From positions 1 to 64,000 of the forward strand of contig NZ_QYYD01000028.1 of assembly GCF_003591005.1 (NCBI RefSeq): a stretch of 64,000 nucleotides of DNA, given 5' to 3'. The translations under genes were made by a program, and so were the position numbers. Every line of letters starts with the position of its first letter. Position 1 is the stretch's first letter. Below the pieces are notes generated by a model that was given only the letters and a program-made list of their open reading frames with translations, did not search any database and had not been told where the DNA came from. This stretch comes from Rhodopseudomonas palustris. GTDB lineage: Bacteria; Pseudomonadota; Alphaproteobacteria; Rhizobiales; Xanthobacteraceae. Below are positions 57,764 to 60,814 of this stretch, one piece after another.

Positions 57764-58648
57764 CTAACCGCCGGTCGCTGCTGAAGCGTCGGCTGTGACC
57801 GGCGCCAGCTTGACGTCATCGACCAGCGACGACGACACCGACGGGACCTGCGCGCCATTGGTCGCGCGGGTCACCGCGAGACGCGCCTTGGCAAACGCAG
57901 CGTCGGCGCTGACCACGCGCGACGAGATTGAGCCGAGCAGCGCGCCGACCAGCACACTGTTGTCGCCGTCGCCGTCTTCGGCGACCTTGCCGGGCGTCGC
58001 CGACGACAGCACCAGTGCATTGGCGGGGGCATTGATCGGGGCAAGGCCGTGCGAATAGGCGCGGAAGCGGCGCTCATAGGGATTGCGCCGCGACGCATCG
58101 ATGATCGCCAGCTTGGCGTGAACACCGCGGTCCTTGATCTCCTCCAGCACCTGCTCGATGCTGACACCGGCACGGCGAACGTCGGCCTCATCCCAGATCT
58201 GGGCATCGACCGGTATCATGTAGCTCTCGCGGCCGGACTGAATGCCATAGCCGCCGAAGAACAGCATCACGGTGGAGTCCTTGGTGACCCGGCCCTTCAG
58301 ACGCTCGACCGCCTGCACGATGTCGTTGCGGCGGGCATCTTCGATCATGTCGACGTCGAAGCCCTCGCGGCGCAGTGCGGCGCTGAGCGCGCGCGCGTCA
58401 TTGACCGGCTGCAGCATGGGGCGCGACGCATCAGGATACCGTCCGTTGCCGATCACCAACGCGAACCGCGAGGTGGACGGCGCCGCAACGCTGACCTGAG
58501 ACGTATCCTTACCGCGCGGAGCGTCGATGTCGCGCTTGTTCAGCGCCGCGTTTGCGCCGATCGCCACCGAAACAGCGCCGACCATGGCGGCCAGAGCGGC
58601 CATCGCCGTCATCGAGCGGCGCGACAAGCGGGGTACGCGAAACATCAT
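57764..58648 (-). CDS. Caspase-fold (C14) protein lacking catalytic His and Cys
   Basis: 294 aa from the ATG at 58648 (AAGGA ten bases before); the open frame reaches 58810. An N-terminal membrane anchor (MTAMAALAAMVGAVSVAIGANA) precedes a p20-like domain: RFALVIGNGRYPDASRPMLQPVNDARALSAALRREGFDV, LKGRVTKDSTVMLFFGGYGIQSGRESYMIPVD, AKLAIIDASRRNPYERRFRAYSHGLAPI, ALVLSSATPGKVAEDGDGDNSVLVGALL. In active members these read GHG and DACR; here they are GYG (Y134) and DASR (S186), so both the His and Cys of the dyad are gone. It is probably a membrane-anchored pseudoprotease acting by binding. Confidence 0.88.
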   Translation of the reverse strand: MMFRVPRLSRRSMTAMAALAAMVGAVSVAIGANAALNKRDIDAPRGKDTSQVSVAAPSTSRFALVIGNGRYPDASRPMLQPVNDARALSAALRREGFDVDMIEDARRNDIVQAVERLKGRVTKDSTVMLFFGGYGIQSGRESYMIPVDAQIWDEADVRRAGVSIEQVLEEIKDRGVHAKLAIIDASRRNPYERRFRAYSHGLAPINAPANALVLSSATPGKVAEDGDGDNSVLVGALLGSISSRVVSADAAFAKARLAVTRATNGAQVPSVSSSLVDDVKLAPVTADASAATGG

Positions 58649-59077
58649 CAGCAATCGGTCCTTGTCCGCGCGACCGGACAGGCGCGGTGACATTCGTCGG
58701 TGAAGGATGAGCCAATCTCGTGCGGTCGAATTGCGCTCTATTTGCGGCGCTGCAGCATAAGAAAGGATTACTGTTCGGGCCTCTCCGGGCCAACCAGCAA
58801 TTTTCGGCACCGTATAGCCTGGGTTCCGGCTGCTGCCTAGACTGGGCTTCTACTTAGGCCGGAACACTGTTGTTCCTTCAGTATTAGGCCGCGTGACTTG
58901 GCGGGCTGGAACACATCTTCGAACCACCTGGTGGCAGCGGCCGACTGAAGGGCCGGGCGGTTCGATAGCACGTCTGCACGCCACGAACTGCGACCCCGCG
59001 GGGATTTGTCAATTCGTCTGGAGCATGCGACGTATCAATGACTTGATGCCTTTCTGGAACTGCCGCGGGAAGAATTC
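58649..59077. other. Divergent gap, caspase-like gene / DxDTTA gene
   Basis: About 430 bp (267 bp if the caspase-like gene starts upstream at 58810). I see no gene, family repeat or strong palindrome. It must contain promoters in both directions. Confidence 0.5.
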
Positions 59078-60814
59078 ATGGACAGGTTGACGATGGCCGG
59101 CGCGGCGTTTCGCGCGCTGACCGCCCGCAAGCAGGCCCCTTCGCTTTACGACCTCTGCGACCCGGTATTCCTTGGCCGCAAGCGCGGCGACCCGCACATC
59201 TCCAAATTCTACAAGACCGCTCTGGGAAATCCGGCCCTGCGGCCGCTGCTCCGCTGCGCCGGCCTGCCCGAGTTGCAGGACCCGGTCCGGTTCCGCGCCG
59301 TCCGCGACGCGCTCGTCTCCGCCCGCGATGCCTCGGAGCCGGACTGGGCCGCAATCGGCCGGCCCATCGCCGAATTGCTGACCAGCGTGCAACTGCGCCA
59401 CCCGCAACCGCGGCTGGTCGCGCCCCCTCGTCAGATGCCGCGGCTGGCGGATATCGACAGCGCGATCCGCGCCGCCGGCGATCACCTGCTGCGCTCCTGG
59501 CAACGAAACGGCTTCATTCCGGCCTATGCGGCCTTCAACCTGATCGGCGATCCGGATTTCGACAGCCGCGCGTTTCTGGCGGCACTGACCGGACTGAACG
59601 CCCGCAGCTACAAGAATTCAACGCTGCTGTTCAATCTGGCCCGCGTCTTCATCGCCCGCTCGCCGGCCGCCGCACTGATTAATCCGGCGTGGCGCGGCGT
59701 CGCCGAGCCGATGTGGTCGCCGGTGCAGATCCGGCATCGCTCGGCTTACTACGACGCGTTCTACATCGAGGCGCTGCTCGGCTTCATCGACAGCGGCCTC
59801 GGTACGCCCGAAGATGTGCGAACCGCGCGGCGCATCATCGCCGAGATGGCTGAGTTCTGCATCAAGACCAGCCGCGAGCGCGTGCGCGCCGATGGCGAGA
59901 CGTTCGACGTGATCACCGCGCTGGCGCCGCCGCCGCATCCGCGCTTCAGCCGGTTCTTCACCCATATCAAGCAGAACCTCGGCTTCGGCGTCTACGTACC
60001 CGATTGCGACACCACCGCCTGCTCGATCTCGGCGGCGACGCAGGCCAACTCGACCGATCCGATCCTCGATCAGCCGCTGATCGATTTTTACGCGTACTAT
60101 CAGGTCCGCGCCGGCGCCAACGCCCCGCTGGTGACCGTGCCGCTCAATGACAACATCGACTATGAGGGCGGCATCGTCACCTGGATCGACGGCCCTGCCG
60201 GCGAGCAGCCGTTCGGCAACGATCTCGATCCGACGCTGAATCTCGACGTCCTCGAAGTCAGCTTCCGCAATTGCGCGCGCTGGAGCATCGTCGAAACGCC
60301 GTCGCGGCTCGAGACCGTCCGACGCATCGTCGACTTCCACCACCGGCTGGTCGCGAGCGGCGCCTTTGCCGATCCGAAGTCGCACGTCTACTATCTGCCG
60401 GAGCTGTATTGCGCGTATTTCGGCCGCTGCTACGCGGCGTTTCGGGCGCTGGACGAGGCCGCGCGCCGCGCCATCGACCCTGACGGCGCGTTCGAGTTCA
60501 TGCGCGCGCACGTGCTGACCTATGTGCAGGACACGTTGATCGCCCGGGAAATGAACGTGTTCGACGCCGCGTTGGCGCTGATTGCGCTCGGCCATCTCGG
60601 CGGTGAGCTCGAATATTTGTCGCCACCGCTGCATTGCATCTTGAATCATCTCGGCGAAGGCAGCGGCGGCGCGCCGTTTCGGGCCTATGAGTGGAACAAG
60701 ATGAAGACGCCGACGCGCATTCTGGTCGGCGGGCCGGAGGTTACGTCCGCTTTCGTATTGATGGGCCTGACGCTGGCGCGTCACGCCATCCTTCGGGGCG
60801 AACGGCGGGGATGA
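59078..60814 (+). CDS. Uncharacterised protein with a DxDTTA motif, terpene-cyclase-like toroid candidate
   Basis: 578 aa, no signal peptide or membrane helix, ATG at 59078 with GGGAAGAA upstream. I do not recognise a named family. The sequence looks all-helical with repeated aromatic helices (e.g. YYDAFYIEALLGFIDSGLGT, LIDFYAYYQVRAG, YYLPELYCAYFGRCYAAFRAL, MNVFDAALALIALGHLGGELEY). At 309-314 it reads DCDTTA after GFGVYVP, the position and form of the DxDD(T)A acid motif of class II terpene and squalene-hopene cyclases; the DxDTT variant is known from the mycobacterial diterpene cyclase Rv3377c. A segment GNDLDPTLNLDVL resembles the N-x-x-D-P-x-x-N-x-N-V-L of related toroid proteins. QW repeats are not obvious. 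No terpene genes are adjacent. Function stays open; a cyclase or a non-catalytic toroid are both possible. Confidence 0.75.
   Translation: MDRLTMAGAAFRALTARKQAPSLYDLCDPVFLGRKRGDPHISKFYKTALGNPALRPLLRCAGLPELQDPVRFRAVRDALVSARDASEPDWAAIGRPIAELLTSVQLRHPQPRLVAPPRQMPRLADIDSAIRAAGDHLLRSWQRNGFIPAYAAFNLIGDPDFDSRAFLAALTGLNARSYKNSTLLFNLARVFIARSPAAALINPAWRGVAEPMWSPVQIRHRSAYYDAFYIEALLGFIDSGLGTPEDVRTARRIIAEMAEFCIKTSRERVRADGETFDVITALAPPPHPRFSRFFTHIKQNLGFGVYVPDCDTTACSISAATQANSTDPILDQPLIDFYAYYQVRAGANAPLVTVPLNDNIDYEGGIVTWIDGPAGEQPFGNDLDPTLNLDVLEVSFRNCARWSIVETPSRLETVRRIVDFHHRLVASGAFADPKSHVYYLPELYCAYFGRCYAAFRALDEAARRAIDPDGAFEFMRAHVLTYVQDTLIAREMNVFDAALALIALGHLGGELEYLSPPLHCILNHLGEGSGGAPFRAYEWNKMKTPTRILVGGPEVTSAFVLMGLTLARHAILRGERRG

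Follow-up and report, generated by a model that had tools for sequence, protein, structure and literature searches.

Which enzyme is encoded by a 578-amino acid open frame of Rhodopseudomonas palustris that carries a short motif resembling the acid motif of class II terpene cyclases, and which of its residues could be catalytic? The frame (positions 59078..60814, plus strand, open from an ATG) is located in a 64,000-nucleotide stretch of DNA analyzed here, hereafter the window (contig NZ_QYYD01000028.1). A first-pass annotation described the product as an uncharacterized protein without a named family, possibly a new cyclase-like group special to phototrophs and acting on GGPP or squalene. Loci from named genomes were fetched with two sequence patterns, AYEWNKM and YVPDCDTT, the latter of which contains the motif itself. 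Because 252 of the 256 stretches matched by these patterns encode a relative, 59078-60814 is a real gene; the best 80 of the 252 were retained. Rhodopseudomonas, Bradyrhizobium, Nitrobacter, Tardiphaga, and related bins are represented among these loci.

The identity of the gene was approached through its position in Bradyrhizobium diazoefficiens USDA 110, for which a 2024 paper (PMC11005386) describes blr0371 as ths, the gene for the enzyme that converts diploptene to tetrahymanol. The genome that we take to be this strain (G897) encodes a family member 68% identical to the window protein (match 397282-398997, plus strand, overrunning the TAA stop at its very end; open reading frame 397129-398994). 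The Br-REP1 element is described as lying between the convergent genes blr0385 and bll0386 (PMC5082802), and an exact Br-REP1 palindrome was found in the same genome at 419026-419045, between a plus-strand frame of 1198 amino acids and a minus-strand frame of 221 amino acids. Reading of the open frames gave 14 genes from the ths orthologue to the plus-strand frame beside Br-REP1, by which count the orthologue is blr0371. Blind tiling of the same stretch gave 13 genes, with an ABC permease and an ATPase replaced by a single opposite-strand frame; this count would place blr0371 on the side of a caspase-like gene, which is on the minus strand in the related loci and so could not be designated "blr." With a count of 15, blr0371 would be a nuclease-like gene. 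On gene order and sequence identity, the window gene is very probably ths, encoding tetrahymanol synthase. The orthologue thus already has a name in PMC11005386, so that neither the label of an uncharacterized protein nor that of a new cyclase-like group can be retained, and a new orphan cyclase was rejected as a candidate; the substrate that goes with this identity, as described there, is hopene instead of GGPP or squalene.

The ths gene was detected in 15 of the 16 Rhodopseudomonas genomes, in 88 of the 296 genomes of the taxonomic family to which the window belongs (12 of 47 genera), and in 259 of 265 genomes in the genus to which G856 belongs, taken as Bradyrhizobium because the coordinates of G892:C43 coincide with those of B. 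centrolobii locus L056. With members in Bradyrhizobium and also in Nitrobacter, the family is not special to phototrophs; a phototroph-specific gene was likewise rejected as a candidate, given that G897 carries ths without PF00124. Another genus, g10, for which Rhodoplanes would fit, combines ths at 59-60% identity with photosynthetic reaction-center genes. The sole ths-negative Rhodopseudomonas genome (G001) is listed as complete with 3% contamination. A sparse sample of the window's own class (289 genomes) yielded two matches, the window's genome and a spurious one in G159, and a sparse sample of the phylum (299 genomes) yielded eight, all in the same family and none beyond; such samples may well miss the carriers among methanotrophs and sulfate reducers, from which Ths has reportedly been described (Banta et al. 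are said to have reported this in 2015). The G159 match was discarded as short and antisense to a frame read as acyl-CoA dehydrogenase. The class of G434, sampled at about one genome per family (239 genomes) with the Ths of methanotrophs in view, gave three matches below an E threshold of 0.1; each scored at most 15 bits, and none was credible. A search for methanotrophs with PF02461 among 299 genomes gave two matches, one of them in the window's order; the other genome, with three longer copies, was judged to be an ammonia oxidizer. No match to the window protein was obtained among plasmids and phages. Viral contigs contributed a single locus, L021 (IMGVR_UViG_2820115951_000001), flanked by caspase-like, aminotransferase, and oligopeptidase genes, the same kinds of neighbors that Bradyrhizobium chromosomes have; the contig appears to be host chromosomal DNA binned as viral. 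In a single-contig genome of the Bradyrhizobium genus (G811:C1:4651035-4652742), the ths match falls into two pieces in different frames, which is a frameshift or a sequencing error.

The first-pass annotation noted no adjacent prenyltransferase, phytoene, or hopanoid gene, and indeed none was recognized among the six neighbors scanned in the window; neighborhood clustering over 81 related loci recognized no terpene partner. A squalene-hopene cyclase (PF13243) gene is present elsewhere in the window's own genome. Upstream of ths, in the opposite direction, lies a caspase-fold gene (PF00656; window 57764-58810, minus strand), and a member of the same cluster is found in 51 of the 81 related loci.

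The motif itself, DCDTTA, was found in the translated frame where it had been claimed, at residues 309-314 after GFGVYVP (60002..60019, plus strand). Among 200,000 shuffles of the protein's own sequence, D.DTTA appeared in 0.06%, D.DTT in 0.47%, and the looser D.D[DT][TDSG] in 5.3%; the occurrence of DCDTTA exceeds chance. Matches were obtained in 136 loci, 135 of them near full length, comprising 103 distinct sequences including the window protein. DCDTTA, and with it D309 and D311, whose retention in homologues was a point raised by the annotation, is identical in all 103, which span 59-100% identity to the window protein and belong to one bacterial family; to judge from these sequences, the invariance represents conservation among close relatives. 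Of the 536 columns covering residues 20-555, 148 are invariant, among them DCDTTA, N381, and Y439, and motif invariance alone is therefore weak evidence of catalysis. The longest invariant run of the pooled set, which was partly fetched with YVPDCDTT, is YVPDCDTTAC at 306-315. In the 40 distinct sequences fetched without the motif pattern, DCDTTA is likewise invariant, and the invariant runs rank by length as 536-548, 380-390, and then 306-315.

Searching Pfam, NCBIfam, and PDB with the sequence of the window protein returned noise only, and the profiles PF13243 and PF13249, which the annotation had proposed for a search, did not match it even with E allowed to reach 10; sequence methods miss the kinship to class II terpene cyclases. 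An AlphaFold2 model of the full protein, built from an alignment of the window protein with 44 of the 81 loci L021-L101, reached pLDDT 84.4 and pTM 0.88, with pLDDT under 50 at residues 285-292, 300-308 (directly preceding the motif), and 371-375. In a Foldseek search against PDB, the best 14 chains, which represent about seven enzymes with several mutants or copies, were all class II terpene cyclases, with E between 1.4e-5 and 4.8e-3 and query-normalized TM of 0.33-0.42; they comprise drimenol synthases, SsDMS, human OSC, squalene-hopene cyclases, and a fungal CPS domain. The next match was GH76 at 8.4e-3. When residues 118-578 were modeled separately (pLDDT 77.2, pTM 0.82), this second model gave scores about ten times weaker than the full model; the first eight PDB chains were again class II cyclases (E 1.9e-4 to 5.9e-3, best TM 0.51), followed by GH105 at 1.2e-2 and GH88 at 1.7e-2. 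The alpha/alpha toroid anticipated by the annotation thus agrees with a predicted toroid-like model whose best PDB matches are class II cyclases (TM 0.33-0.51), and squalene-hopene cyclase, with which a fold comparison had been proposed, is among these matches (2sqc). The description as all-helical is nearly right, with short strands also present in the model. A viral fold library gave 0 matches at E up to 1e-3.

Model confidence at residues 152-216 falls when residues 1-117 are left out, and we therefore read the protein as two lobes. The N-terminal helical lobe (residues 1-117; 59078..59428, plus strand) would pack with residues 150-216 (59525..59725, plus strand), so that the second lobe would comprise 1-117 and about 150-216. 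The putative toroid, with its helices present in both models, would consist of the main part at residues 218-578 (59729..60811, plus strand) plus helix 123-144 as the remaining helix, with twelve main helices when short ones are excluded. We assign a class II-like fold to this tetrahymanol synthase orthologue with good confidence on the strength of the two models and their fold matches. In two genomes of one genus (G660:C1:5068889-5069101 and G712:C12:21430-21645), a second frame, of 282 amino acids, weakly matches the part of the profile that covers the N-terminal lobe (positions 29-102, about 20 bits).

Candidate catalytic residues were mapped by helix counting, with the helices beginning at 223, 312, 385, 441, 494, and 553 taken as inner. 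In AsDMS, functional residues are described at 281, 331/333, 373-380, 425-427, and 509-518, with Y427 holding D333 (PMC12365925), and in AstC, N324 and Y361 are described as holding the acid D273, with D271 as the base (PMC13244436). By this counting, D311 would correspond to AsDMS D333, and Y439, in the invariant pair Y438-Y439 (60389..60394, plus strand), to AsDMS Y427, which suggests Y439 as the partner of the acid. The invariant N381 and D309 appear to be placed like AstC N324 and D271. N381 belongs to the invariant GNDLDPTL (residues 380-387; 60215..60238, plus strand), a possible source of either a D311 partner or a rival acid, D382 or D384; its acidic DLDPT stands where AsDMS has the diphosphate-binding Y373, R378, and R380, which fits a diphosphate-free substrate. 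Given the gene identity and the class II-like fold, D311 is likely the proton donor, with D309 as its putative helper, by analogy to AsDMS and AstC.

It is unlikely, in our estimate, that the protein is a toroid-fold tetrahymanol synthase whose acid is D382 or D384 of GNDLDPTL, with DCDTTA serving a structural or water-holding role. In the 40 sequences fetched independently of the motif, the invariant run 380-390 exceeds 306-315 in length, and an hhalign comparison with squalene-hopene cyclase pairs DLDPT (382-387) with DLDDT (E 0.017, probability 2.7%, not significant), whereas the comparison with a Bradyrhizobium CPS pairs DCDTTA with DADDTA (E 0.071, probability <3%, not significant). The proline after the middle aspartate of DLDPT, unlike DxDD or DxDTT, and helix counting against AsDMS, which favors 309-314, also speak for DCDTTA. 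The sequence used as CPS lies on the minus strand of locus L167 (genome G375); this frame encodes a class II cyclase containing DADDTA, probably the gibberellin-type CPS of its genus.

With D311 as the acid, the reaction could proceed as follows. Squalene-hopene cyclase would first make hopene (diploptene), the substrate of Ths; D311 of DCDTTA, held in place by Y439 and possibly also by N381, with D309 assisting, would then protonate the C22=C29 double bond of the finished hopene; rearrangement of the hopanyl cation would expand ring E from five members to six; and water would end the reaction, giving tetrahymanol. The role of D311 as acid, the residue mapping, and the order of the cation steps are what we infer here. 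It is fairly likely, considering the predicted fold and the analogy to the drimenol synthases, that Ths is a very divergent single-toroid relative of class II cyclases in which D311 protonates hopene. Purified Ths is not known to have been shown to carry out the reaction in vitro, which would accommodate a tetrahymanol synthase that is no acid-base cyclase and instead assists or redirects squalene-hopene cyclase or employs other chemistry; this is improbable in view of the predicted fold, the conserved motif, and the descriptions of the enzyme as acting on the cyclase product (PMC11005386, PMC8172173).

A supply of hopene is consistent with the gene content of the carriers. A gene of the squalene-hopene-cyclase type (PF13243) was identified in 86 of the 88 genomes that carry ths. 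In a 119-genome sample of the family, 71 genomes have such a gene, including 32 of 32 ths carriers versus 39 of 87 others (hypergeometric value 1.6e-9, which, with the genomes being related, is not a true probability). Among the remaining 56 carriers, 54 have it, and the two misses are genomes 86% and 85% complete. In at least four carriers (G010, G014, G791, and G864), the sole PF13243 gene detected was a divergent one. This squalene-cyclase-like gene, with the PF13243 match at 2-296, is also present in G632, G641, G661, and G691, of which G641 and G691 have a standard squalene-hopene cyclase gene elsewhere in the genome as well; both divergent genes that were read (L170 and L171) contain DTDDTA. 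In a study described as covering 54 alphaproteobacteria, the three with ths made tetrahymanol, and Afipia and Variibacter contained hopanoids but tetrahymanol was not seen (PMC12583986). The co-occurrence with PF13243 genes, together with gene order, strand, and the lack of a prenyltransferase beside the gene in the window, makes it very improbable that the blr0371 assignment is wrong and that the protein is a class II enzyme cyclizing a linear prenyl chain such as FPP, GGPP, or squalene, even with FPP cyclases as the best fold matches. A carbohydrate-acting alpha/alpha-barrel enzyme, suggested by the appearance of GH76, GH88, and GH105 after the cyclases in the fold searches, is hardly tenable, with the glycoside hydrolases behind every leading cyclase (E 8.4e-3 and 1.2e-2 versus 1.4e-5 and 1.9e-4) and the orthologue named as a lipid enzyme (PMC11005386).

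If the class II fold and D311 as the acid are correct, they would provide a directly testable mechanism for an enzyme so far characterized chiefly through its gene. Family members that lack a name in Rhodopseudomonas, Bradyrhizobium, Nitrobacter, and Tardiphaga can now be given one. Tetrahymanol is a sterol-like lipid whose fossil form, gammacerane, is used by geochemists to recognize stratification in ancient waters; bacterial Ths is among the sources of gammacerane. A literature search of limited reach, which drew on partial texts, found no description of a class II fold for bacterial Ths. The bacterial enzyme is described as expanding a ring of the squalene-hopene cyclase product and as forming its own group, separate from the eukaryotic cyclase and convergent with it (PMC8172173); a "THS" is named among class II enzymes in PMC11610947, which we take to mean the eukaryotic enzyme. 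We lean, somewhat beyond even chances, toward the reading that bacterial Ths, with its single toroid, descends remotely from class II terpene cyclases, having kept the DxD acid site but lost chain cyclization, and re-protonates a finished hopanoid to enlarge one ring. On this reading, a single ancestral scaffold would have led to tetrahymanol twice, along one route in bacteria and another in eukaryotes. The view of distinct, convergent enzymes stated in PMC8172173 would then need qualifying, to different routes and perhaps one scaffold.

Compared with known systems, the window protein shares a class II acid motif with the bacterial type II diterpene synthases Rv3377c, Tpn2, and PtmT2, none of which is among the fold matches listed; these enzymes are set apart by their described two-barrel beta-gamma form acting on GGPP and DxxxxE metal site (PMC9814783). 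With the single-domain class II enzymes MstE and myxobacterial 8paj/8pak, it would share a single toroid, and 8pak and 8paj are among the first eight matches of the 118-578 model, whereas MstE reaches only E 0.09-0.26 with this model, and the window protein has a putative extra N-terminal lobe. Squalene-hopene and oxidosqualene cyclases are similar in fold (matches 2sqc and 1w6k) and in the proton-started triterpene chemistry proposed here; in contrast to squalene-hopene cyclase, which is a separate gene in the same genome, the window protein has no PF13243 match. AsDMS and AstC, HAD-fused drimenol synthases with a TC-beta domain, are the best fold matches and share the DxDTT motif and, on the proposed mapping, an aspartate with a tyrosine partner, but act on a different substrate, and the window protein has no phosphatase domain, no sequence match to them, and no recognized diphosphate-binding arginine set. 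Bacterial Ths, to which MEALZ_1626 of Methylotuvimicrobium alcaliphilum belongs (PMC8590665), is the group in which the window protein very probably falls; genera that carry ths are described as producing tetrahymanol (PMC12583986). Its named counterpart is the Ths described as blr0371 of B. diazoefficiens (PMC11005386), with orthology resting on position and on 68% identity to the gene that has this number by count.
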